Below, one piece after another: positions 33,324-45,615 of a stretch of DNA of 64,000 nt. The DNA comes from Joostella atrarenae (GTDB taxonomy: Bacteria; Bacteroidota; Bacteroidia; Flavobacteriales; Flavobacteriaceae): NCBI RefSeq assembly GCF_021764745.1, contig NZ_JAETXX010000007.1:1-64000 (forward strand), read 5' to 3'. Position numbers and translations under genes: made by a program. The notes beneath the pieces were generated by a model. It searched no databases and was not told the DNA's origin. It saw only the letters and a list, made by a program, of their open reading frames with translations. Numbering within the stretch: position 1 is the first letter of the stretch; each line of letters opens with the position of its first letter.

Positions 33324-34025
33324 CTAAAGATTATTTGACAGCTGTTCTATTTTAACCTTATCGTTTATTTTGATTTTTTTACCATCAGTAATAATTAGTC
33401 CTTTCTTAGAGAAATCTGATATCATTCTAATCATGGACTCTGTTGCTGTACCTACAATATTTGCAAATTCTTCTCGTGACAAAGTGATTTTAAGAAATCC
33501 TTCTTCACCAGTACCAAATTCATCATTTAAACTTAGCAGTGCACTTGCAAATCTTGCCTTTACAGGTTTTTGAGCCATTTGCACAATATGATTATTAGCA
33601 AGTTTTAAATCGTAACAAATATCATTTACAATATCGGCAGAGAAGCTTGAATTTTCTTTAAATACAGTCAGGATTTCTGCTTTAGGAATAAAACAAACTT
33701 CCATATCTTCAATAGCTTTTGCTGATAAACTTACCGCATCATCACTTACAATGCTACGTTGCCCTAAAAGATCTCCCCTTTTTATAAACTTAACAATCTG
33801 ACTTTTCCCATTTGAAGATAACTTGGTTAGTTTACATATTCCAGATTTAATACAATAAACTCCATTTAAATGATCTCCTTCTTTAAAAATATAAGCTCCT
33901 TTTTTAACTCTTTCAGAAGTCTTACAATCAGAAATTCCTATTAATTCAGATTTGTTTAAACTTCTTAAAGAACTAAATTTTCGCACTATACATTGCTCGC
34001 ATTTACTCAATTTCGGTAGTGCCAT
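33324..34025 (-). CDS. Crp/Fnr family transcriptional regulator
   Basis: The 233-residue protein has a cyclic-nucleotide-type sensor domain (about 25-145: KKGAYIFKEGDHLNGVYCIK, GDLLGQRSI) and a winged helix-turn-helix (about 165-225: SREEFANIVGTATESMIRMI), where an E-x3-R pair could contact a TGA half-site. The N-terminus begins with C-x2-C (Cys9, Cys12), and other Cys are near residues 33, 57, 63 and 110. Whether four form an Fe-S cluster as in FNR cannot be told. It lies divergent from ccoI, and matching palindromes lie before ccoI, ccoS and hemN. Confidence 0.93.
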   Translation of the reverse strand: MALPKLSKCEQCIVRKFSSLRSLNKSELIGISDCKTSERVKKGAYIFKEGDHLNGVYCIKSGICKLTKLSSNGKSQIVKFIKRGDLLGQRSIVSDDAVSLSAKAIEDMEVCFIPKAEILTVFKENSSFSADIVNDICYDLKLANNHIVQMAQKPVKARFASALLSLNDEFGTGEEGFLKITLSREEFANIVGTATESMIRMISDFSKKGLIITDGKKIKINDKVKIEQLSNNL

Positions 34026-34051
34026 TCTTTAATTTATTAAATTATTTGGTT

Positions 34052-34095
34052 ATGACAAATATCATACTTTTTATTTATATATTTATAGAGATTTG
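34052..34095 (+). promoter_or_regulatory. Crp/Fnr-type operator and promoter of ccoI
   Basis: ATGAC-AAAT-ATCAT (34052-34065) is centred 36.5 nt before the last G of GAGATTTG (34088-34095), a -7 box with one mismatch. The inferred transcription start near 34100 puts the operator at about -41.5. Same geometry as before ccoS and hemN. Confidence 0.65.
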
Positions 34096-34115
34096 CGCAG
34101 CAAAAACTTTATTTA

Positions 34116-36488
34116 GTGAGGGATTCATGTTTTCATTGTGGTTTAGATTGCGAACAAGACTCTTTAGTCTTCGACGATAAAATATTTTGTTGCAATGGTT
34201 GTAAGACTGTTTATGCTATTTTTTCTGAAAACAACCTAACTTCTTATTACGACCTCGAAAAGACCCCAGGAACGACTCCCACTCAAATTCAAGGTAAATA
34301 CGATTTCCTTGAAAACGAAAAAATCGTTAAAAGCTTAGTAGAATTTAATGATGATGACCTACAAATTGTAAGTCTCTATATTCCTACAATACATTGTAGT
34401 TCTTGCATTTGGGTGCTAGAAAATCTTCATAAATTAAATTCAAATATAAAAAATTCTCAAGTAAATTTCCCTAAGAAAACTATAAGAATTACTTACAAAA
34501 CCAGTGAATATGACCTAAAAAAGGTAGTATTACTATTAGCTTCTATCGGTTATGAACCTAAAATAAACTTAGAAAATAAAAATACAGAGATAGAATCTCT
34601 AGATCGAAGCATCATTTATAAATTAGGAATTGCAGGTTTTGCTTTCGGGAATATTATGTTTTTATCTTTCCCAGAATATTTTGAAGTTGGAGAGTTTTGG
34701 CTTGAACAATACAAACCATTTTTCCGATGGATCATGTTTGCTTTTTCTCTTCCAGTAGTTTTTTATGCTTCTTCAGATTATTTTATATCTGCTTATAAAG
34801 GGATTAAATCTAAAATTCTAAATATTGACCTTCCTATTGCATTAGGAATTGCAGTTTTATTCACAAGAAGTTGCTATGAAATTATTACTGGAGTTGGTCA
34901 AGGTTTTTTCGACAGTCTCGCCGGATTAGTATTCTTTTTACTCATTGGGAAATTTTTTCAGCAAAAAACATATAGTTTCCTCTCTTTTGAAAGAAGTTAC
35001 AAAAGCTACTTCCCTATTGGCGTTACCATTATAAAGTCCGATAATAATGAAGAAAACATCCCTGTTCAAGATGTAAAAAAAGGAGATAGAATACTCATCC
35101 GAAGTGAAGAGATTATTCCTGTAGACAGCATCCTTATAAAAGGCGATGCTGCTATTGATTATAGTTTTGTTACTGGAGAATCTGATGTTGTGAAAAAAGA
35201 ATCTGGTGATAAAATTTTTGCTGGTGGAAAGCAAAAAAAGAATGTCATAGAAATTGAAGCTTTAAAAACAGTTTCTCAGAGTTACTTAACGCAACTTTGG
35301 AGTAATGATGCTTTTAAAAAAGAAGGCCATGCTAATTTTAAAAGTATAACAGATCAAATTAGTAAATACTTTACTATTGTTATTTTAACGATAGCCTTCC
35401 TTTCGCTCTTTTATTGGATTTGGAAAGATGCATCCAAAGCTGCATACGTATTTACAGCCATCCTTATAATTGCATGCCCATGTGCATTAGCTCTTTCTGC
35501 TCCCTTTACTTTAGGTAACTTACTCCGAATATTCGGAAAAAAAGGGTTTTACTTAAAAGACGGACATGTAATTGAAAAGCTAGCAAAAATAGACACTGTT
35601 ATTTTTGACAAAACAGGAACTATTACAGCCAGTAATCAACACGCTATAACCTATGAGGGAGACGCATTAAATGATGATGAAGAAATATTACTTAAAAGCA
35701 CTTTAAGGGGCTCGAATCACCCGTTGAGCAGACAATTATACGAGCTATTGAAATCAAACAATATTATTCCATTAGATGAATTCAAAGAAACTACTGGTAA
35801 AGGCCTAGAAGCACGTATTAAGAATCAAAATATAAAAATAGGCTCTGCTAACTTCGTTACCCAAGGCAATACCAAGAGCGCCTTAAAAACAAGTGTCCAT
35901 ATAAGTACAAATAATCAATACAAAGGTAAATATGTCTTTTACAATCAATATAGAAAAGGCATCTCTAAATTATTCAATAAATTAAGTAAAAAATATTCGC
36001 TAGTAATTTTATCTGGAGATAATGCAAGCGAAAAAGAAAATTTATGTAAATTACTTCCTGTTAAGACAAAGTTGCTATTTAATCAGCAACCTCAAGATAA
36101 ATTAATATACATAAGACACCATCAAGAAGAAGGTGCTAAAATATTAATGATTGGAGACGGACTAAATGATGCTGGAGCTTTAAAGCAAAGCAATGTTGGA
36201 GTTGCCATCTCTGAAAATGTAAATATATTCTCCCCCGCCTGCGACGCAATATTAGACGCGAAAAAGATTACTGAGATAAATAAGTATTTAAGCTCATGTA
36301 AAAAAGGTATTAATATTATAAAGGCAAGCTTCATCCTTTCTTTTATATATAATATTATAGGTTTATCCTTTGCTGTTACTGGACACTTATCGCCTGTTGT
36401 AGCAGCCATTTTGATGCCTTTAAGCTCTATTAGTGTAGTTGTTTTTACAACGTTATGCACTAACTATTGCACAAGAAAATTAAATTGA
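34116..36488 (+). CDS. ccoI: Copper-translocating P-type ATPase of cbb3 oxidase assembly
   Basis: The 790-residue protein (FixI/CcoI type) starts with a Cys-rich segment (CFHCGLDC, CCNGCK), a heavy-metal-associated domain with C94-x2-C97 (TIHCSSCIW), eight membrane helices with the CPC metal site at 454-456, phosphorylated Asp498 in DKTGT, and the hinge GDGLNDAGAL. It loads copper for CuB of the cbb3 oxidase. The start is a GTG at 34116, the codon that keeps the Cys-rich N-terminus. ccoS and ccoNO follow. Confidence 0.95.
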   Translation: MRDSCFHCGLDCEQDSLVFDDKIFCCNGCKTVYAIFSENNLTSYYDLEKTPGTTPTQIQGKYDFLENEKIVKSLVEFNDDDLQIVSLYIPTIHCSSCIWVLENLHKLNSNIKNSQVNFPKKTIRITYKTSEYDLKKVVLLLASIGYEPKINLENKNTEIESLDRSIIYKLGIAGFAFGNIMFLSFPEYFEVGEFWLEQYKPFFRWIMFAFSLPVVFYASSDYFISAYKGIKSKILNIDLPIALGIAVLFTRSCYEIITGVGQGFFDSLAGLVFFLLIGKFFQQKTYSFLSFERSYKSYFPIGVTIIKSDNNEENIPVQDVKKGDRILIRSEEIIPVDSILIKGDAAIDYSFVTGESDVVKKESGDKIFAGGKQKKNVIEIEALKTVSQSYLTQLWSNDAFKKEGHANFKSITDQISKYFTIVILTIAFLSLFYWIWKDASKAAYVFTAILIIACPCALALSAPFTLGNLLRIFGKKGFYLKDGHVIEKLAKIDTVIFDKTGTITASNQHAITYEGDALNDDEEILLKSTLRGSNHPLSRQLYELLKSNNIIPLDEFKETTGKGLEARIKNQNIKIGSANFVTQGNTKSALKTSVHISTNNQYKGKYVFYNQYRKGISKLFNKLSKKYSLVILSGDNASEKENLCKLLPVKTKLLFNQQPQDKLIYIRHHQEEGAKILMIGDGLNDAGALKQSNVGVAISENVNIFSPACDAILDAKKITEINKYLSSCKKGINIIKASFILSFIYNIIGLSFAVTGHLSPVVAAILMPLSSISVVVFTTLCTNYCTRKLN

Positions 36489-36498
36489 TTTAGTAAGT

Positions 36499-36542
36499 AT
36501 GACAAATGTCATTCTTTATGCTTAAGAATGACTATAATTTTG
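36499..36542 (+). promoter_or_regulatory. Crp/Fnr-type operator and promoter of the ccoS-ccoNOQP operon
   Basis: ATGACA-AA-TGTCAT (36499-36512, perfect 6-bp arms) is centred 36.5 nt before the last G of TAATTTTG (36535-36542), an exact -7 box. A small inverted repeat CATTCTT/AAGAATG overlaps the spacer. The predicted start near 36547 puts the operator at about -41.5, as expected for class II activation. Confidence 0.75.
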
Positions 36543-36560
36543 CAATAGAATATAAAAGCT

Positions 36561-36728
36561 ATGAGTGTAATATATATCCTATTATCGATAAGTATTTTAA
36601 TCGCCTTGATATTTTTCATTGCTTTTATTAGCGCCGTAAGATCTGGACAATATGATGATAGCTACACGCCATCTGTACGCATGCTTTTTGAAGATGAAAT
36701 AAAAGAACAAACCAATAAAAATAAATAA
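36561..36728 (+). CDS. ccoS: cbb3-type cytochrome oxidase assembly protein CcoS
   Basis: A 55-residue gene: MSVIYILLSISILIALIFFI forms one membrane helix, followed by FISAVRSGQYDDSYTPSVRM and an acidic-basic tail. The RSGQYDD motif after the helix is the CcoS signature. CcoS is needed to insert cofactors into CcoN. The gene lies between ccoI and ccoNO, 16 bp before the latter, and follows the operator at 36499. Confidence 0.92.
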   Translation: MSVIYILLSISILIALIFFIAFISAVRSGQYDDSYTPSVRMLFEDEIKEQTNKNK

Positions 36729-36744
36729 ACAATAATCACAAACT

Positions 36745-38949
36745 ATGGAGATGGAACAATTTTACTACGACAACAAAATTGTAAAGAAGTTTCTTTATGC
36801 TACTATGTTCTGGGGCTTAGTAGGGATGCTGGTAGGTTTACTACTTGCTTTTTTATTCGTATTTCCACATTTAACCGACGGTATTTCGTGGTTAAGTTTT
36901 GGTAGGTTAAGACCTCTACATACAAATGCTGTTATTTTTGCATTTGTTGGGAATGCAATTTTTGCGGGAGTATATTACTCCCTACAAAGGTTACTTAAAG
37001 CCAGAATGTATAGTGACTTTTTAAGTAACTTAAATTTCTGGGGATGGCAACTTATTATTGTTGCTGCCGCTATTTCACTACCGCTAGGATATACTACATC
37101 TAAAGAGTATGCCGAATTAGAATGGCCTATAGATATTGCTATTGCAGTTATTTGGGTTGCTTTTGGTGTAAATATGATTGGTACTATTCTTAAAAGAAGA
37201 CAACGCCATTTATATGTTGCAATATGGTTTTACTTAGGAACTTTTGTAACTGTTGCTGTTTTACATATTTTTAATAATATAGAACTGCCTGTTAGTGCAA
37301 TGAAAAGTTATTCTGTATATGCAGGAGTTCAAGATGCATTAGTACAATGGTGGTATGGACACAATGCTGTTGCATTCTTCCTTACGACTCCTTTCTTAGG
37401 GCTTATGTATTATTTTGTACCGAAAGCTGCAAACAGACCTATCTATTCATATAGATTATCTATTGTGCATTTCTGGTCCCTAATTTTTATATATATCTGG
37501 GCAGGACCTCACCATTTATTATACACAGCTTTACCAGAATGGGCACAAAATTTAGGGGTTGCATTTTCTGTAATGCTTCTTATGCCTTCTTGGGGAGGTA
37601 TGATAAACGGACTCTTAACATTAAGAGGAGCTTGGGACAAAGTTAGAGTTGACCCAGTTTTAAAATTCTTTGTAGTTGCAATTACTGGTTATGGTATGGC
37701 AACGTTCGAAGGGCCACTACTTTCTCTTAAGAGTGTAAATGCTGTAGGTCACTTTACAGATTGGATTATTGCACACGTTCACGTTGGTGCTTTAGCATGG
37801 AATGGATTCTTAACTTTTGGGATGATTTATTATCTAGTTCCAAAAATGTTCAAAACAAAATTATATTCTGTAAAACTAGCCAACTTCCATTTTTGGATAG
37901 GTACATTAGGAATTATCCTTTACGCACTTCCAATGTATGTTGCTGGGTTTACACAAGCTTCTATGTGGAATCAATTCAATCCAGATGGAACATTACTTTA
38001 CGGTAACTTCTTAGAAACTGTAACTCAAATTATCCCAATGTATGCAATGAGAGCAATTGGAGGTACAATGTATCTTATCGGAGCTGCTATTGGAGTTTAC
38101 AATGCTGTTAAAACAATAAGAATTGGAGTTGATGTTACTGATGAATTAGCGGAAGCTGCTCCATTAACAAGAGTATCTAAAAAGAGACTTTCTGGAGAGA
38201 CTTTCCACGGTTGGTTAGAAAGAAAACCAGTACAATTAACAATTTTGGCTACCATCGCCATATTAATTGGTGGTATCGTACAAATTGTACCTACCATATT
38301 AGTAAAATCTAATATCCCAACTATATCTAGTGTAACGCCATATACTCCTTTAGAGCTAGAAGGTAGAGATCTTTATATCAGAGAAGGTTGTGTTTCTTGC
38401 CACTCTCAAATGATTCGCCCTTTTAGAAGTGAAGTGGAACGTTATGGAGAGTATTCTAAAGCAGGAGAATATGTTTACGACCATCCATTCCTTTGGGGAA
38501 GTAAACGTACAGGTCCAGATTTACACCGTATTGGAGGTAAATACAACGACAACTGGCACTTTAACCATATGTACGATCCACAGAGTACGTCGTCAGGAAG
38601 TATTATGCCATCATATCGTTGGTTAATTATGGACGAACTCGATCGTTCTGATATTGAAACAAAAATGGAAGTCATGGTAAAGCTTGGTGTTCCATATACA
38701 GAAGAAGAAATAGCAAATGCACGTCAAAATATGGATGAGCAAGCAAATGCTATACAAGAAAATCTATATCAAGATCCTGATTTTAAAGCAACATACGAAG
38801 AAGATAAGCGAGCTGCAGCAGCTAGAAATGAAGAATTCGTAGAGATGAAAGATCGTGAAATTGTAGCCTTAATCGCCTACTTACAAAGATTAGGAACAGA
38901 TATTAAGATAAATTTCGATCAAGAAGAATCAACTAGTAAAAATAACTAA
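36745..38949 (+). CDS. ccoN: Fused CcoN-CcoO cbb3 cytochrome c oxidase subunits I and II
   Basis: The 734-residue protein joins the haem-copper oxidase subunit CcoN (about 1-480, roughly 12 membrane helices with His ligands in LRPLHTNAVIF, WWYGHNAVAFF, WAGPHHLLY and IAHVHVGALAW) to CcoO (about 500-734), which has one helix and a single haem c site C549-VSC-H553 (EGCVSCHSQMIRPF). Fusion of these subunits is known in Bacteroidota. It reduces oxygen at low concentration. ccoQ follows after 2 bp. The exact Met among the first (MEM) is not decisive. Confidence 0.95.
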   Translation: MEMEQFYYDNKIVKKFLYATMFWGLVGMLVGLLLAFLFVFPHLTDGISWLSFGRLRPLHTNAVIFAFVGNAIFAGVYYSLQRLLKARMYSDFLSNLNFWGWQLIIVAAAISLPLGYTTSKEYAELEWPIDIAIAVIWVAFGVNMIGTILKRRQRHLYVAIWFYLGTFVTVAVLHIFNNIELPVSAMKSYSVYAGVQDALVQWWYGHNAVAFFLTTPFLGLMYYFVPKAANRPIYSYRLSIVHFWSLIFIYIWAGPHHLLYTALPEWAQNLGVAFSVMLLMPSWGGMINGLLTLRGAWDKVRVDPVLKFFVVAITGYGMATFEGPLLSLKSVNAVGHFTDWIIAHVHVGALAWNGFLTFGMIYYLVPKMFKTKLYSVKLANFHFWIGTLGIILYALPMYVAGFTQASMWNQFNPDGTLLYGNFLETVTQIIPMYAMRAIGGTMYLIGAAIGVYNAVKTIRIGVDVTDELAEAAPLTRVSKKRLSGETFHGWLERKPVQLTILATIAILIGGIVQIVPTILVKSNIPTISSVTPYTPLELEGRDLYIREGCVSCHSQMIRPFRSEVERYGEYSKAGEYVYDHPFLWGSKRTGPDLHRIGGKYNDNWHFNHMYDPQSTSSGSIMPSYRWLIMDELDRSDIETKMEVMVKLGVPYTEEEIANARQNMDEQANAIQENLYQDPDFKATYEEDKRAAAARNEEFVEMKDREIVALIAYLQRLGTDIKINFDQEESTSKNN

Positions 38950-38951
38950 TC

Positions 38952-39143
38952 ATGATGAAGTTTGTTAAAAATTATATGGAGTCTATAGATGGGGTAGCAG
39001 TATACCCTATCTTCTCCCTACTCATCTTTTTTATATTTTTTGTGATCTTATTTTGGTGGGTTGCAACTGCAAAAAAAGATTATATAAATAAAGTGAGTCA
39101 ATTCCCATTAGACAATAACGATAAAACCAACATAACATCATGA
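38952..39143 (+). CDS. ccoQ: cbb3 oxidase small subunit CcoQ-like
   Basis: A 63-residue protein with a single membrane helix (about 17-40, YPIFSLLIFFIFFVILFWW) flanked by MKFVKNYMESIDGVAV and AKKDYINKVSQFPL. This is the CcoQ/FixQ pattern of Bacteroidota, a stabiliser of the core complex. It starts 2 bp after ccoNO and overlaps ccoP by 4 bp (ATGA), showing tight coupling. Confidence 0.88.
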   Translation: MMKFVKNYMESIDGVAVYPIFSLLIFFIFFVILFWWVATAKKDYINKVSQFPLDNNDKTNITS

Positions 39144-40000
39144 GAAATTTTACATCTTACTTACGTGTTATAATAATAGTATCTCTTGTTTTTTGTGCTG
39201 CTGAATATTTTATAGATTCAGGAGACAAACCAGCATTTATAGAATATCCACAAGTAGCCGTATTTTTAGTGCTATTTGCTATATTATTAATTGCGGTTGA
39301 AATTGTAGTGGCTTCGATGAACAGTCTTACAAGGGCTTTATTAAATGAAGAACAATTAGCTGAAGCTGAAGAAAACTCATGGACTAAACGTTTCCTTAAG
39401 AAAATGACCAAAACAAGGTCTATCGAAGAGGAAAGAGAAATTATATTAGACCACAATTACGACGGAATAAAAGAGCTTGATAATGATTTACCACCATGGT
39501 GGCTATATGGTTTTTATGCGAGTATTGTATTTGCTGCTATTTACCTATTCAAATATCACGTTCTTGATGGGGATAATCAAATAGTAGAATATGAAAAAGA
39601 AGTAGCGGCAGCTCAGATTGCTATTGATGAATACAAAAAAACTGCTGTGGACTTAGTTGATGCTAAAACCGTTGTTGCATTAACTGAAGATGGAGAAATT
39701 AAAAAAGGAGGAGAAATCTTTCAGGTTAACTGTGTTGCTTGTCACCGTGCAGATGGTGGTGGAGCCATTGGTCCTAACTTAACAGATGATAATTGGATTT
39801 TAGGAGGTGGAATTAAAAACATCTTTAATACCATTTCTGAAGGAGGACGAAGTGGAAAAGGAATGATTGCCTGGAAGCAGTCTTTAAAACCATCAGAAAT
39901 ACAACAAGTTGCTAGTTATATACTAACACTGCATGGAACTAACCCTGAAAACCCTAAAGCACCAGAAGGTGATATATGGGTGGAGCCTGCAACAGAATAA
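39140..40000 (+). CDS. ccoP: cbb3 oxidase subunit CcoP, single-haem form
   Basis: The 286-residue protein has membrane helices at about 8-25, 33-55 and 118-135, the second region containing the CcoP N-terminal signature (DGIKELDNDLPPWWLYGFY). Its C-terminal cytochrome c domain has a single site C198-VAC-H202 (NCVACHRADGGGAIGPNLT) and an axial Met in GKGMIAWK. Proteobacterial CcoP carries two haem c groups; only one C-x2-CH is present here. It ends the oxidase operon, followed by a terminator. Confidence 0.93.
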   Translation: MRNFTSYLRVIIIVSLVFCAAEYFIDSGDKPAFIEYPQVAVFLVLFAILLIAVEIVVASMNSLTRALLNEEQLAEAEENSWTKRFLKKMTKTRSIEEEREIILDHNYDGIKELDNDLPPWWLYGFYASIVFAAIYLFKYHVLDGDNQIVEYEKEVAAAQIAIDEYKKTAVDLVDAKTVVALTEDGEIKKGGEIFQVNCVACHRADGGGAIGPNLTDDNWILGGGIKNIFNTISEGGRSGKGMIAWKQSLKPSEIQQVASYILTLHGTNPENPKAPEGDIWVEPATE

Positions 40001-40009
40001 ATTATAAAT

Positions 40010-40040
40010 CACTGCCTCTTGAAAGTCTCAAGAGGTAGTG
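40010..40040 (+). terminator. Terminator after ccoP
   Basis: Stem CACTGCCTCTTGA (40010-40022) and TCAAGAGGTAGTG (40028-40040), one wobble pair, 5-nt loop. The T run is weak. It separates the oxidase genes from the ccoG-ccoH group. Confidence 0.75.
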
Positions 40041-40063
40041 TTATTAAATAAACTTTTCCTATA

Positions 40064-40093
40064 TTAAGTTGGAATCTACTACTTACAACTTAA
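40064..40093 (+). repeat. Inverted repeat before ccoG
   Basis: TTAAGTTG (40064-40071) and CAACTTAA (40086-40093), perfect 8-bp arms 14 bp apart, about 25 bp before the ccoG start. It may be an operator or weak leader hairpin. It does not match the sites before ccoI, ccoS and hemN. Confidence 0.45.
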
Positions 40094-40115
40094 TAAAATT
40101 CTAAACACTAAAAAT

Positions 40116-41537
40116 ATGGAGGCGTCTGAGGGTAATTTCAGAGATTCTATTAGTACTGTCAATGAAGATGGTAAAAGGTCTTGGGTATATCCAAAAAAAC
40201 CTAAAGGAAAGTTTTACAAGTATCGAAAATATGTAAGTTATTTCCTTTTAGCCTTTTTATTATTAGGCCCTTTTATTAAAGTTAATGGTAATCAGTTTTT
40301 GCTATTTAATTTCTTAGAGCGTCGTTTTAATATTTTCGGATTCCCATTCTGGCCACAAGATTTCTATTTATTTGTTATTTCCATGATTATTGGGGTGGTT
40401 TTTATTGCCCTATTTACAGTAGCTTTTGGTCGTATCTTCTGCGGATGGATTTGTCCACAGACTATTTTTATGGAAATGGTTTTCAGAAGAATTGAGTATT
40501 GGATTGATGGAGATCGAGGGGCACAAATTCGTTTGGACAAACAAGAGTGGAATGCCGAAAAAATTAGAAAAAGAGGATTAAAATGGTTTATCTTTTTCTG
40601 CATTTCTTTTCTTATCGCCAATGTATTTCTTGCATACCTCATCGGTAGCGATCAATTATTACGATACATAAAAGAAGATCCATTAGATAATATCTCTACG
40701 CTTATATCTTTACTTATTTTCACTGCTGTATTCTACTTTGTTTTTGCTTGGTTTAGAGAACAAGTATGTATAATTGCTTGCCCTTACGGTAGGTTACAAG
40801 GAGTATTACTAGATAACAAATCTATTATTGTTGCTTACGACCATAAAAGAGGTGAAGGAGATAATGGAAGAAAAAAGTTTAGAAAAGGTGAAGATAGAGA
40901 TGCTATAGGTGCTGGAGATTGTATAGACTGTAAGCAATGCGTTAACGTCTGCCCTACCGGAATAGATATTAGGAATGGAACGCAGTTAGAGTGTGTGAAC
41001 TGCACCGCCTGCATCGACGAATGTAATACCATAATGGAAAATGTAAATCTTCCTAAAGGGTTAATTAGATATGCTAGCGAAGATAATATTGAGAAAAAAG
41101 CTCCTTTTAAACTCACTCCAAGGCTAAAAGGTTATGCAGCCGTATTAGTAATTTTAATAGGATTACTTATAGGAATGTTGTTTTTAAGAAATGATGTGGA
41201 AGCAAATATACTTCGTCTTCCTGGACAGCTATACGAGCATAAAGGAGAACATATAATTAGTAATGTTTATACATTTAAACTGATAAATAAAACGGTTAAG
41301 GAAATTGATAATGTTCACTTTGAATTGTTAGATCCTAAAGGGGAAGTTAAATTAGTATCAGTAGAAAATTTTAATATTCCAAAAGAAGGATTACATCAAG
41401 GGACTCTTTTTGTAGAGATTGACAAAGCCTTTCTTGACAAGGATAAAACTACTATTAAAATAGGTGTATTTAGTGATGACACGCTTATAGAAACAACCAC
41501 TACTACATTTATGGGACCAAGAAGTTATAGAAAATAA
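40116..41537 (+). CDS. ccoG: cbb3 oxidase accessory ferredoxin-type protein CcoG (RdxA/FixG)
   Basis: The 473-residue membrane protein reduces copper during CuB assembly. It has about five helices, Cys motifs CGWICPQT and CIIACPYG, then two 4Fe-4S clusters in CIDCKQCVNVCPTGID and CVNCTACIDECN (about 270-305). A further helix (about 340-358) and a C-terminal Ig-like periplasmic domain follow. ccoH lies 7 bp downstream. Confidence 0.95.
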   Translation: MEASEGNFRDSISTVNEDGKRSWVYPKKPKGKFYKYRKYVSYFLLAFLLLGPFIKVNGNQFLLFNFLERRFNIFGFPFWPQDFYLFVISMIIGVVFIALFTVAFGRIFCGWICPQTIFMEMVFRRIEYWIDGDRGAQIRLDKQEWNAEKIRKRGLKWFIFFCISFLIANVFLAYLIGSDQLLRYIKEDPLDNISTLISLLIFTAVFYFVFAWFREQVCIIACPYGRLQGVLLDNKSIIVAYDHKRGEGDNGRKKFRKGEDRDAIGAGDCIDCKQCVNVCPTGIDIRNGTQLECVNCTACIDECNTIMENVNLPKGLIRYASEDNIEKKAPFKLTPRLKGYAAVLVILIGLLIGMLFLRNDVEANILRLPGQLYEHKGEHIISNVYTFKLINKTVKEIDNVHFELLDPKGEVKLVSVENFNIPKEGLHQGTLFVEIDKAFLDKDKTTIKIGVFSDDTLIETTTTTFMGPRSYRK

Positions 41538-41544
41538 AAAAATT

Positions 41545-41991
41545 ATGAAATTCAATTGGGGAACAGGTATTGTCGTTGCTTTTATATTATTTATAAGTTT
41601 CATTCTATATTTAGTTATTAGAATGAATACTGAAGATGCGTACGACCACCATTTAGTATCTAAAGACTACTATAAAAAAGAGTTAGAATATCAGAGTAAA
41701 ATCGATAATGCTCAAAAAGCAAAAGAGAAAGGATACCAGCTTAAAGCAGAAAAAACTTCGGAAGGTGTTTTAGTGACATTTCCATCAGAAATGGAAGGTC
41801 AAGATATCACTGGAGAGGTTTTCTTGTATCGCCCTTCAAATGACGTATTGGATTTTAAAAGTCCGATAAAAGTTAGTAATTCTACTTTCTTAATTCCGCA
41901 ATCAAAACTCCCTGGAGGAAGATGGAATATAGAAGTAAATTGGGTATACAATAACGAAAACTATTACTACAAAAAAGAATTAAGTTTATAA
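41545..41991 (+). CDS. ccoH: FixH/CcoH family protein
   Basis: The 148-residue protein starts with MKFNWGTGIVVAFILFISFI, a single helix, then YLVIRMNTEDAYDHHLVSKDYYKKE, the FixH signature with a D-x3-Y pattern, and a beta-rich periplasmic domain (about 55-148, GRWNIEVNWVYNN). It assists cbb3 oxidase maturation. It is flanked by ccoG (7 bp) and the TauE/SafE-like gene (4 bp), an unbroken assembly operon. Confidence 0.92.
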   Translation: MKFNWGTGIVVAFILFISFILYLVIRMNTEDAYDHHLVSKDYYKKELEYQSKIDNAQKAKEKGYQLKAEKTSEGVLVTFPSEMEGQDITGEVFLYRPSNDVLDFKSPIKVSNSTFLIPQSKLPGGRWNIEVNWVYNNENYYYKKELSL

Positions 41992-41995
41992 GACC

Positions 41996-42703
41996 ATGTT
42001 ACTTTCTGCATTTATATTAGGTTTATTAGGAAGCTTTCACTGCATTGGCATGTGTGGCCCTATTGCCTTTTTATTGCCGTTAGATCATAAAAACCAGACT
42101 AAGAAAGTATTCCAGATTTTCATTTATCACTTTGGAAGGATATTAACCTATTCTTTAATAGGCTTTATCTTTGGTTGGTTAGGCAAAGGACTTTTTGTTA
42201 GTGGTTTACAGCAGCGCCTTTCTATAATAATTGGAATTCTTATTATACTTACAGCATTAATTCCTTTACGAAAAACTAAATCTAACTTTATTTCTAAAAC
42301 TGTAATGCTTTGGGTTTCTAAAGCACAATCTGCATTAGGGAAACAACTTAAAAAGAAAAAAACATCGGCCTTGTTTTCTATAGGTTTTTTAAATGGTTTC
42401 CTACCATGCGGTATGGTTTACATGGCTTTATTTGCAGCTATTGCTATTGGGAACCCATACCAAAGTTCGCTATATATGGTATTTTTTGGAATTGGAACAA
42501 TTCCGCTTATGACAACAGCAGTATATTTAGGTAACTTCCTTTCTGTTTCAGCAAGAAAAAAAATAACAAAAGCTATTCCTGTTTTTGTTATCATTATCGG
42601 TGCGCTATTTATTATGAGAGGAATGGGATTAGGAATTCCATATGTTTCCCCTTCGGATCTTCAACTTATGGTGAAGTCAACTCCAAACTGTATAGTTCCT
42701 TAA
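41996..42703 (+). CDS. TauE/SafE-like (DsbD_2/UreH-type) membrane protein
   Basis: The 235-residue protein has six or more membrane helices and the N-terminal GSFHCIGMCGPIAF, with a second block FLNGFLPCGMVYMA. This fits the SafE/UreH-like group regularly found at the end of ccoGH operons in Bacteroidota. Cys in both blocks could bind a metal or act in thiol exchange. A part in copper supply to the oxidase is likely from context but unproven. It converges with hemN (6-bp gap). Confidence 0.88.
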   Translation: MLLSAFILGLLGSFHCIGMCGPIAFLLPLDHKNQTKKVFQIFIYHFGRILTYSLIGFIFGWLGKGLFVSGLQQRLSIIIGILIILTALIPLRKTKSNFISKTVMLWVSKAQSALGKQLKKKKTSALFSIGFLNGFLPCGMVYMALFAAIAIGNPYQSSLYMVFFGIGTIPLMTTAVYLGNFLSVSARKKITKAIPVFVIIIGALFIMRGMGLGIPYVSPSDLQLMVKSTPNCIVP

Positions 42704-42709
42704 AAGATC

Positions 42710-44068
42710 TTACACAGTCATTGAGAAAAGTTGCGTATCAGGTTTTTTCTTCAACAAATACATATCAAAAGCCATGCATATATTTCTTACAAATGGTCTT
42801 CCTTCTTCAACTATAACAAGTTTATTTTCTTTAAACTCAATAAGTCCGTCGTTAGCAAACTCTTTTAATGAAGACAATACTTTTGGAAGCTCTTCAAAAT
42901 AATTAGAACTTTCTTCCCAAGAAGTACGCAAATTGCACATAAGATTTAAGATATGCTTACGAATTATTAAGTCTTGACTGTTTAATAAATGTCCTCTATA
43001 AACTGGTATTGTTCCAGCATTAACCAGTTTCGTATATTCATCAATCCCTTTGGCATTTTGAGCAAAAGCATACCAACTATCACTTATACTAGACGCCCCC
43101 AAACCAATCATTAAATTAGTTTTCTGGGTAGTATACCCCATAAAGTTTCTATGGAGTTCATTATTTTTCAAAGCAACAGAAAGGGAGTCACTCTCTAATG
43201 CAAAGTGATCCATTCCGATTTCTATATAATTCAACTCCTCTAAGAGTTTCTTTCCAGTTTCATACAAAGCTCTTTTCTCATCTCCTTTAGGGATATCATT
43301 TTCATCAAAGCCTCTTTGTCCGTTTCCTTTTATCCAAGGTACATGTGCATAGCTATAAAAAGCAATCCGTTCTGGCATAAGCAATAAAGTCTTATTGATA
43401 GAATCTACCACATGCTCCATTTTTTGGAAAGGCAATCCAAAAATAAGATCATGACTTATTGAAGTATATCCTATCTCTCTTGCCTGATCTGTAGCACGTT
43501 TTACATTTTCAAAAGGTTGAATTCTATGTATTGCTTTCTGAATGGTAGGATTGTAATCTTGAACTCCGTAGCTGACTCTTCTAAAACCTAAATCATATAA
43601 AGTTTGAAGATGTTCTTTTGTAGTATTATTAGGATGTCCTTCAAAACTAAACTCATAATCATCTGCATGATCGGCTAGCTTAAAAACACCATCTATTAGC
43701 CTCTTAAGGTTTTCAGGAGAAAAAAATGTAGGTGTTCCACCTCCAAGATGGATTTCCTTAATCTTAGGAGTACCATCAAACAAATCACAATAAAGTTTCC
43801 ATTCTGATAAAACGGTATCTATATATGGCGATTCTACTTCATGTCTCTTAGTAATGCGCTTGTGGCACCCACAAAACGTACATAAGCTCTCACAATAAGG
43901 CAAGTGAATATAAAGACTTAATTCCCCGTTATTCTCATCAAAAGATTTATGCAACGATGACTCCCAACCCCCTACAGAAAAGGTTGATTCATCCCAAAAA
44001 GGTACAGTTGGGTAACTTGTATATCGAGGGCCGGGAACGTTATACTTTTGAACTAAAGAACTAGACAT
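42710..44068 (-). CDS. hemN: Oxygen-independent coproporphyrinogen III oxidase
   Basis: Radical-SAM enzyme of anaerobic haem synthesis that decarboxylates coproporphyrinogen III. The 452-residue length matches true HemN rather than shorter HemW. The 4Fe-4S site is C-x3-C-x2-C (YCESLCTFCGCHK, about residues 54-64), followed by EIHLGGGTPTFFS and the second SAM site, RVSYGVQDYNP. Its promoter (44088-44130) carries the same operator geometry as the cbb3 genes, consistent with expression at low oxygen. Confidence 0.95.
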   Translation of the reverse strand: MSSSLVQKYNVPGPRYTSYPTVPFWDESTFSVGGWESSLHKSFDENNGELSLYIHLPYCESLCTFCGCHKRITKRHEVESPYIDTVLSEWKLYCDLFDGTPKIKEIHLGGGTPTFFSPENLKRLIDGVFKLADHADDYEFSFEGHPNNTTKEHLQTLYDLGFRRVSYGVQDYNPTIQKAIHRIQPFENVKRATDQAREIGYTSISHDLIFGLPFQKMEHVVDSINKTLLLMPERIAFYSYAHVPWIKGNGQRGFDENDIPKGDEKRALYETGKKLLEELNYIEIGMDHFALESDSLSVALKNNELHRNFMGYTTQKTNLMIGLGASSISDSWYAFAQNAKGIDEYTKLVNAGTIPVYRGHLLNSQDLIIRKHILNLMCNLRTSWEESSNYFEELPKVLSSLKEFANDGLIEFKENKLVIVEEGRPFVRNICMAFDMYLLKKKPDTQLFSMTV

Positions 44069-44087
44069 ATCATCACAATTTATCGAG

Positions 44088-44130
44088 CAAAATTACTCCA
44101 ATAGTAAATTACAAAAAATGATAATTATCA
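44088..44130 (-). promoter_or_regulatory. Crp/Fnr-type operator and promoter of hemN
   Basis: TGAT-AATT-ATCA (44119-44130, perfect palindrome) is centred 36.5 nt from the last G (44088) of minus-strand TAATTTTG (44095-44088). hemN starts 20 nt further. Same operator-to-box distance as before ccoI and ccoS. Confidence 0.75.
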
Positions 44131-44154
44131 GCTAATCATTGCTTACAAAAAAAG

Positions 44155-45615
44155 TTATATTTTAATAACCCATGCTATTTCATTTTTTAGTTCTGATCTT
44201 AAACTCTTTGATATTTTTATTGTTGAAGTATTATCCTTATTTACCTTTATTTCTAAAGTTTCATCTTTACCTAGAACATGCGCAGTACTCTTATCAAGAG
44301 AAAAAGGCACATTTATTTCTGAAGAGACTTCTGCTCCTTCTTCCATCAGGTAAATTAAATAGGTAGTTCCATCTTTCTTTTCAGTGATACAAACATTATC
44401 AAATTTATATGGAGCTACAGCGTTAGTTTCATAGATAGCTTCTGAATTTACACCCATCCAATCTCCAATTTCTGATAACAGCTTATAGGCTCCTTTATCC
44501 CATTCTCCTTCAGGACTAGGAGCAATGTTAAGTAGTAAATTACCTCCCTTAGAAACTATATCTGCAAGTGTATGTACAGCTTTTCGTCCAGACATATATT
44601 TAGCATTAAAAGAGTATGACCAGCCACCTCCAGCTATAATACACGACTCCCAAGGATACGGCAATGCTTTTTCTGGAATTCTATTTTCTGGAGTTAAGTA
44701 GTTCTGGTTTTTTCCATGAACAGCACGATCTACAACAATAAGTCCTGGTTGTTTCTCTCTTGCTTTTTCTACAAGCTTATCCATTTCTATATCTTGATTG
44801 ATATTTCTAGTTTTCATATAGCCTGTAGCGCTTTCCTTCACAGAACGATCATACCAGTCTACGATATCTTGAGTCGGTTTTTTAGCAACCCAACCCCCGT
44901 CTAACCAAAGGATATCAATATCCCCATAATTAGTCATCAATTCTAAAATCTGATTATGGGTAAAATCCACATACTTCTTCCACTTTTCTGGATATGCTTC
45001 TGGATCGTAATTTACATTTCTATCCTTTGGAGGGAAATACGGATCCCAATAAGAATCCATATGCCAATCTGGTTTAGAAAAATATGCCCCAGCCCACATT
45101 CCATTATCCCTAAAAGCATTAAAAATAGCCTTTGTTACATCTGCATTATCTTGTTTTGAAAATGGTGTTTCCGTATTTGTGATTTTATAATCTGAATACT
45201 GCGTATCAAACATATTATATCCGTCGTGATGCTTTGTAGTAAACACAACATATTTCATTCCTGCATCTTTAGCTGCGCTCGCCCATTTTTCAGGATTAAA
45301 CTTTATAGGATTAAAAGATTTTCCCAAAGCTTCATATTCTTTTTTGTAAGCAAAGTAGTTATCTGGGTTACTCCCTTTTTTCCGAGCGCACCAACCATAT
45401 TCTTCAGGGCATAAAGACCAAGATTCCACAACTCCCCATTGGCTATATGCTCCCCAATGCATTAGTAATCCAAATTTTAATCCTTGCCATTGCTCTAGCT
45501 TTTCAAGCACTAAAGGATCTGTTTCTGGAACGTACCGTTCATCTTCATAAACAGCCTGTCCAATGGCTAAATTTGTATAGATGAACAATGAAAAAAGTAA
45601 CGTAATATTCTTCAT
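44155..45615 (-). CDS. Alpha-L-fucosidase (GH29)
   Basis: The 486-residue secreted protein has a signal peptide (1-19) and the GH29 TIM-barrel signature: LLMHWGAYSQWG, YVVFTTKHHDGYNMFDT and the nucleophile Asp of ILWLDGGW (about Asp239), then a beta-sandwich C-terminus. It removes terminal fucose, commonly from N-glycan core or antennae. It is the last gene of the GH20-GH92-GH29 group, 38 bp after the GH92 gene. Confidence 0.95.
   Translation of the reverse strand: MKNITLLFSLFIYTNLAIGQAVYEDERYVPETDPLVLEKLEQWQGLKFGLLMHWGAYSQWGVVESWSLCPEEYGWCARKKGSNPDNYFAYKKEYEALGKSFNPIKFNPEKWASAAKDAGMKYVVFTTKHHDGYNMFDTQYSDYKITNTETPFSKQDNADVTKAIFNAFRDNGMWAGAYFSKPDWHMDSYWDPYFPPKDRNVNYDPEAYPEKWKKYVDFTHNQILELMTNYGDIDILWLDGGWVAKKPTQDIVDWYDRSVKESATGYMKTRNINQDIEMDKLVEKAREKQPGLIVVDRAVHGKNQNYLTPENRIPEKALPYPWESCIIAGGGWSYSFNAKYMSGRKAVHTLADIVSKGGNLLLNIAPSPEGEWDKGAYKLLSEIGDWMGVNSEAIYETNAVAPYKFDNVCITEKKDGTTYLIYLMEEGAEVSSEINVPFSLDKSTAHVLGKDETLEIKVNKDNTSTIKISKSLRSELKNEIAWVIKI

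Follow-up and report, generated by a model that had tools for sequence, protein, structure and literature searches.

Three promoters in the Joostella atrarenae genome, those of ccoI, ccoS-ccoNOQP, and hemN, carry a TGAYN4RTCA palindrome at one fixed distance from a TAnnTTTG-like box, and this arrangement recurs elsewhere in the genome, in relatives, and throughout the class. We consider it likely that the palindromes are class II operators, centered at -41.5, of an FNR-like oxygen-sensing activator, which is probably the product of the neighboring regulator gene. As judged from sequence patterns, the low-oxygen regulon predicted here is well supported.

Results

Genes of the block

The window analyzed in this work is a stretch of 64,000 nucleotides, part of a contig of a 3.99-Mb genome in 71 contigs. 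The gene for an FNR-like Crp/Fnr regulator (233 amino acids; 33324 to 34025, minus strand; PF00027 and HTH_Crp_2) lies at the block's left edge rather than in its middle, where the first-pass annotation had placed it. The genes that come next are all on the plus strand: ccoI (34116 to 36488, with GTG taken as the start), which encodes a copper-type P-type ATPase and was named from its family (TIGR01525 and PF12156) and position; a ccoS-like small open reading frame of 55 codons (36561 to 36728), named from its position; ccoNO (36745 to 38949; PRK14485), in which subunits I and II of the cbb3 oxidase are fused; a ccoQ-like small open reading frame recognized by eye (38952 to 39143); ccoP, for subunit III of the oxidase (39140 to 40000; FixP_N and Cytochrome_CBB3); ccoG (40116 to 41537; TIGR02745); ccoH (FixH; 41545 to 41991; PF05751); and a gene for a DsbD_2-family membrane protein (41996 to 42703; PF13386), which ends the cco run. 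On the minus strand, hemN (42710 to 44068; TIGR00538) encodes an oxygen-independent coproporphyrinogen III oxidase. Between ccoP and ccoG, a hairpin, CACTGCCTCTTGA..TCAAGAGGTAGTG, was seen by eye at 40010 to 40040 and was absent from the terminator scan output; it may separate the transcription of ccoGH from that of ccoNOQP.

Operator and box geometry in the window

The first operator, TGACAAATATCA (34053 to 34064), is a TGAYN4RTCA palindrome with ccoI on one side (plus strand) and the divergent regulator gene on the other (minus strand), and the -7 box of ccoI, GAGATTTG, occupies 34088 to 34095 on the plus strand. Upstream of ccoS-ccoNOQP, the 12-mer TGACAAATGTCA (36500 to 36511) is followed by the box TAATTTTG (36535 to 36542, plus strand), while the hemN operator, the 12-mer TGATAATTATCA (44119 to 44130), is accompanied by the box TAATTTTG at 44088 to 44095 on the minus strand. 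At all three promoters, 36.5 nt separate the palindrome center from the final G of the box (34095 and 36542 on the plus strand and 44088 on the minus strand), which corresponds to a spacer of 23 nt between palindrome and box; the palindromes and their identical spacing can thus be read directly from the DNA, as the first-pass annotation had reported. Its description of a TAnnTTTG-like box at each promoter held for ccoS-ccoNOQP and hemN, identified by sequence match, whereas the ccoI box has its first T replaced and reads nAnnTTTG, one mismatch away. An inverted repeat, GTCATTC...GAATGAC (36508 to 36532), starts in the right half of the cco operator and stops just short of the -7 box; by eye, it was not conserved among the relatives' spacer-23 promoters inspected.

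The bare palindrome occurred 8 times in the window versus 4.58 times expected, and 8 of 100 shuffles reached 8, showing no clear enrichment. Palindrome, exact spacing, and AnnTTTG box combined occurred 3 times versus 0.02 expected, with none of 100 shuffles reaching 3. Because this combined pattern was composed after the three sites were known, the fair tests are those outside the window. The window scan gave these three sites only, and no separate operator with this spacing precedes ccoG. A generic sigma-70 promoter scan of positions 33900 to 44300 was uninformative (30 found versus 46.7 expected).

In the available part of one study of flavobacterial promoters, the TAnnTTTG box is positioned at -12 to -5 (PMC9723704). 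With the box G at -5, the operator center would fall at -41.5, and the class II position near -41.5 that had been proposed for these sites fits the fixed spacing combined with the published box position.

Spacing and targets in the host genome

We paired TGAYN4RTCA with TAnnTTTG at spacers of 8 to 38 nt (31 spacings) in the whole host genome and obtained 21 operator/box pairs, of which 9 had spacer 23 and 12 were spread over the remaining 30 spacings. Since the reversed control gave 13 pairs over all 31 spacings, the excess over the control is located at spacer 23. After removal of the two exact window pairs, spacer 23 held 7 of 19 pairs (binomial p ~1e-6). A relaxed scan (spacer 23, nAnnTTTG) yielded 12 sites, compared with 3 in the reversed control. 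These data provided the genome-wide enrichment of motif and spacing that the first-pass annotation had proposed to look for, and many of the targets are genes of microaerobic or nitrogen-oxide respiration.

The OmpW, NosZ, copper nitrite reductase, and NrfH/NrfA identities come from a family search. Besides ccoI (L101), ccoS-ccoNO (L011), and hemN (L012), the sites precede the genes for NrfH and NrfA (nrfHA; L100), with an nAnnTTTG box as at ccoI; a copper nitrite reductase (nirK) fused to cytochrome c (L009); a c-type cytochrome followed by a Sec-type NosZ (L008), this operon being divergent from an Rrf2-like gene (by eye) and a NorB-type gene; OmpW (L001); and a pyridine-nucleotide disulphide oxidoreductase, with a ferredoxin-like gene next in line (L003). 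Two targets have no clear low-oxygen role, namely a small protein without a Pfam family, with a YtkA-like protein encoded after it (L004), and an MBL-fold protein (L007), whose site abuts the end of an upstream gene, Crp-like by eye. For L002 there was no convincing gene on the strand of the site, and for L099 (C4:6147-6189 of the same genome) there was no gene within the next 560 nt. L099 combines a good palindrome with a GACTTTTG box, and it may be either the promoter of a small RNA missing from the annotation or a false match.

Conservation in the promoters of relatives

To follow the arrangement in relatives, 80 loci were gathered by CcoNO similarity, without use of the regulator as a criterion, and the palindrome was searched up to 350 nt upstream of ccoI and hemN or up to 420 nt upstream of ccoN (ccoS included). 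It was present upstream of ccoI in 41/57, hemN in 15/27, and ccoN in 68/77 scorable loci. When the orthologous promoters were compared, as had been suggested for a check, spacer 23 with a box of at least 5/6 was found to be kept at 32/57 ccoI, 48/77 ccoN, and 15/27 hemN loci. Counted per palindrome, this amounted to 32 of 43, 48 of 80, and 15 of 15, respectively, and each of the 15 hemN palindromes had spacer 23 and a 6/6 box. Any other spacing between 10 and 36 accounted for at most 4 (ccoI), 3 (ccoN), or 2 (hemN) palindromes. The arrangement was missing at 25/57 ccoI, 29/77 ccoN, and 12/27 hemN loci, which lay mostly outside the Flavobacteriaceae; within that family, it was missing at the hemN genes of L017, L033, L036, and L076.

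The spacer-23 sites gave the consensus (A/C)TGAYAAWTRTCATnTTTT-N17-TAnnTTTG. The base preceding TGA in the ccoN promoters was A in 32/48 and C in 14/48, and a T stood directly 3' of the palindrome in 47/48 ccoN, 32/32 ccoI, and 15/15 hemN promoters. Farther on comes a run of T at ccoN and ccoI, weaker at hemN, that would cover -33 to -30 if the box G is at -5. The first T of the box was present at 47/48 ccoN and 15/15 hemN sites, compared with 3/32 at ccoI; like the window's ccoI box, the other 29 lack it. The avoidance of this T suggests that the ccoI promoter is weak and that its weakness is conserved.

Tandem palindromes exactly 22 bp apart were observed upstream of ccoN in 6 of the 77 scored loci (L058, L061, L062, L073, L088, and L091); no named Flavobacteriaceae were among these. 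In each pair, the proximal palindrome is at spacer 23, and the two are predicted to be operators at about -63.5 and -41.5.

Occurrence in the class

For the class to which the window belongs (presumably Bacteroidia), 149 genomes were scanned, its own among them. The spacer-23 pattern gave 526 sites in 121 of the 149 genomes, versus 18 sites in 17 genomes in the reversed control. The 15 spacings from 24 to 38 gave 846 matches together, or about 56 each, versus 312 in the reversed control of the 149 genomes. Because spacer-24 cases were frequent among the matches listed, spacer 24 may also be in use.

Each genome was further grouped by its regulator content among the matches listed, the FNR-type label being assigned by hand. 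Among these matches, 65 genomes with a full-length FNR-type match had a mean of 4.98 operators (2 genomes with none), 53 with other Crp matches only had 3.11 (9 with none), and 27 with no match at E 1e-20 had 0.52 (17 with none); 4 genomes of ambiguous content (mean, 5.75) were set apart. The operator count thus rises with regulator content among the matches listed, in counts that ignore kinship. Since genomes with only other Crp proteins among those matches have 3.11 sites each, the architecture is no proof of the window regulator. Longer Crp/Fnr-like frames of ~350 to 380 amino acids were also seen in many genomes of the class (among the matches listed); they match from about profile position 23 and have an extra N-terminal part of some 130 residues.

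Divergence of fnr and ccoI

The regulator gene (fnr) and ccoI diverge around a common operator in 28 loci, including the window; L044 has a second palindrome. On the ccoI side, spacer 23 was found in 22 of the 26 loci scored (L042 and L055 were left out), and the box was under 5/6 at spacer 23 in L036, L043, L047, and L049. On the fnr side, the 6/6 box stood at spacers of 9 (8 loci), 10 (4 loci), 11, 14, and 0 (1 locus each), 23 (4 loci), 34 (3 loci), and 45 (1 locus), and none was found downstream of the operator in 5 of the 28 loci, the window among them. The loci with spacer 23 belong to Arenibacter, Maribacter, and two uncultured organisms. With a spacer of 9 or 10, the operator would be centered near -27.5 to -28.5 and lie between the promoter elements, so that repression of fnr is predicted, and an fnr-side spacer of 23 puts it at -41.5, so that activation is predicted. 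The common operator is thus predicted to occupy repressing or activating positions for fnr, differing by clade; the fnr promoter would have shifted among genera, with the ccoI side mostly kept at -41.5.

The regulator and its cysteines

The predicted structure is a confident Crp/Fnr fold (pLDDT 90), with a cyclic-nucleotide-type domain and an HTH_Crp domain. The best NCBIfam model was PRK11161 (FNR) at 91.5 bits, under its curated cutoff of 228, and the FnrL and FixK models matched under the cutoff as well. A Foldseek search with the predicted model placed GlxR, P. gingivalis 2gau, and Mtb CRP first; A. fischeri FNR had a TM score of 0.81.

The cluster cysteines of E. coli FNR are C20, C23, and C29 near the N terminus plus C122. 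When the regulator was aligned with the A. fischeri FNR chains, C9, C12, and C111 stood opposite cluster ligands; the third N-terminal cysteine (the C29 equivalent) corresponds to S18, and C58 faces an alanine. An alignment of the window protein with 22 orthologues showed no variation at C9, C12, C58, or C111 among its 23 sequences. All four cysteines also occurred in 34 of 36 rows compared, the other two being partial matches to different Crp paralogues. In the predicted model, C58 and C111 lie in strands 55-61 and 108-114, respectively, which presumably are neighbors in the beta-roll. These features suggest that C58 is a relocated Fe-S cluster ligand in place of the missing third N-terminal cysteine. 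The recognition helix of E. coli FNR carries E209, S212, and R213; E196 and R200 of the regulator are aligned in this helix and invariant among the orthologues, and I199 takes the S212 position. Because the third cysteine is missing and the score is under the NCBI cutoff, we call the protein FNR-like.

In a set of 123 FNR-type proteins, 119 had the CxxC motif and C111. Under a loose rule for the third N-terminal cysteine (a Cys anywhere in the 14 residues following CxxC), 56 of the 119 had C58 without it, 54 had both, 8 had the N-terminal cysteine only, and 1 had neither; the two thus look like alternative fourth ligands. On a tree, the either/or pattern involved 15 label changes in total; C58 changed 6 times and the N-terminal cysteine 10 times. 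Because well-supported branches offered just 3 independent pairs, the tree test was underpowered, and the correlation is not established beyond a Fisher p of 0.03 that ignores kinship.

Discussion

The model that we favor is as follows. The box would be the -7 element of a sigma-A promoter, with its G at -5, and a dimer of the FNR-like protein whose gene diverges from ccoI would recruit RNA polymerase from -41.5. The protein would carry an oxygen-labile Fe-S cluster on C9, C12, C58, and C111, which would stay intact at low oxygen and allow the dimer to bind, and the high-affinity oxidase, oxygen-independent heme synthesis, and nitrogen-oxide respiration would thereby be turned on together. In F. 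psychrophilum, cbb3 oxidase and heme-synthesis genes are reported to be up under oxygen limitation (PMC9723704). Among the FNR-like proteins of Bacteroidota, the fourth ligand may be either the classical N-terminal cysteine or one on a beta-roll strand (C58 here), and the sampled Flavobacteriaceae orthologues, which are without the classical cysteine, would rely on C58. The joint reading, that the fourth cluster cysteine is interchangeable and that fnr is self-repressing or self-activating depending on the genus, is offered tentatively, as its probability seems to us a little under one half.

The first-pass annotation held three exact coincidences to be unlikely by chance, and a random origin in an AT-rich genome now has a negligible probability. 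Although the bare palindrome count in the window and the 13 reversed pairs against 21 real ones over all spacings would fit with chance, the peak at spacer 23 in the host genome, the relatives, and the 149-genome class refutes it as far as sequence can. It is unlikely, but deserves more weight, that the sites function as class II Crp/Fnr operators but are bound mainly by another Crp/Fnr protein, such as a paralogue or an NO sensor, whose role the neighboring regulator would merely overlap. At E 0.001, the genome has six Crp-family matches, counting that of the window, and one paralogue (L094) is 41% identical, with the same E..IR recognition-helix residues and cysteines of its own; nitrogen-oxide genes are among the targets, and genomes with only other Crp proteins among the matches listed still carry the architecture. 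Against a different main binder stand the 28 loci (window included) in which the regulator gene diverges from ccoI at the common operator, a homologue of at least 38% identity within the fetched flanks of 31 of the 80 cco loci, and the mean operator count of the FNR-type genomes, the highest of the three main groups among the matches listed. The paralogue itself (L094:1425-2105; C13 of the same genome) is a second FNR-like protein with an extra N-terminal cysteine, and its gene adjoins an AraC-like gene (by eye).

A Crp-like regulator responsive to cAMP or carbon, for which the respiration genes would be only one part of a carbon regulon, is quite improbable. The Foldseek order, with GlxR, 2gau, and Mtb CRP first, would fit such a regulator, as would an assignment, in the accessible text of PMC8510549, of a Flavobacteriales Crp/Fnr homologue, which may be a different orthologue, to a MalR-like, carbon-sensing group. 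The conserved CxxC, C122-equivalent cysteine, and C58, however, as well as several targets that are oxidase, heme, or nitrogen-oxide genes, argue against carbon sensing.

The FNR of E. coli and Aliivibrio fischeri (5e44 and 9qly) resembles the window protein in its Crp fold, N-terminal CxxC, and C122-equivalent cysteine, and the operators of both have TGA...TCA half-sites. E. coli FNR, whose dimerization is controlled by an oxygen-labile [4Fe-4S] cluster, acts from -41.5 at class II promoters and has the operator TTGATnnnnATCAA, and the targets of proteobacterial FNR are of kinds that overlap those of the window regulator. In contrast to E. coli FNR, however, the window protein has S18 for C29 and an extra invariant C58, TGA is preceded mostly by A or C instead of the T of the TTGAT site, and the promoter is of the TAnnTTTG type. 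The proteobacterial FixK and FnrL proteins are Crp/Fnr activators of cco genes and mediate microaerobic induction, and FixK2, to our knowledge, contains no Fe-S cluster; FixK/FnrL control differs from that proposed here in phylum, promoter type, and cysteine pattern.

HcpR/DNR proteins are also FNR-like and recognize similar palindromes, e.g., TTGACnnnnGTCAA, and HcpR2 has been described in Bacteroides too, as stated in the available part of PMC1274295. The same part defines HcpR/DNR by the absence of an FNR-type cysteine motif, and we rejected this identity for the window protein, which has CxxC and C111. PgRsp and HcpR of Porphyromonas gingivalis are Crp/Fnr superfamily regulators from Bacteroidota like the window regulator. 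PgRsp was rejected as a member of the same family; it binds heme, and "iron-sulfur" and "4Fe-4S" do not occur in the text examined of PMC6955866. P. gingivalis HcpR is likewise heme binding, as judged from search listings. Bacillus subtilis Fnr, in which three C-terminal cysteines and Asp141 are the ligands (PMC3520743), likewise has an unusual ligand set; the change proposed here is the shift of one cysteine onto a strand of the beta-roll. In the open-access literature, as judged from search listings, we found neither an FNR regulon in any Bacteroidota organism nor any account, for that phylum, of such an operator or such a cysteine pattern.

The rigid distance between operator and promoter offers a simple predictor of genes for low-oxygen life, denitrification, and N2O reduction, with a rule that spans a group common in the sea, soil, and gut. 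For the specialist, the surprising parts are the candidate cysteine relocation and the predicted switch in the sign of fnr autoregulation; the moved Fe-S ligand, if true, would mean that a textbook oxygen sensor exists in a new design.
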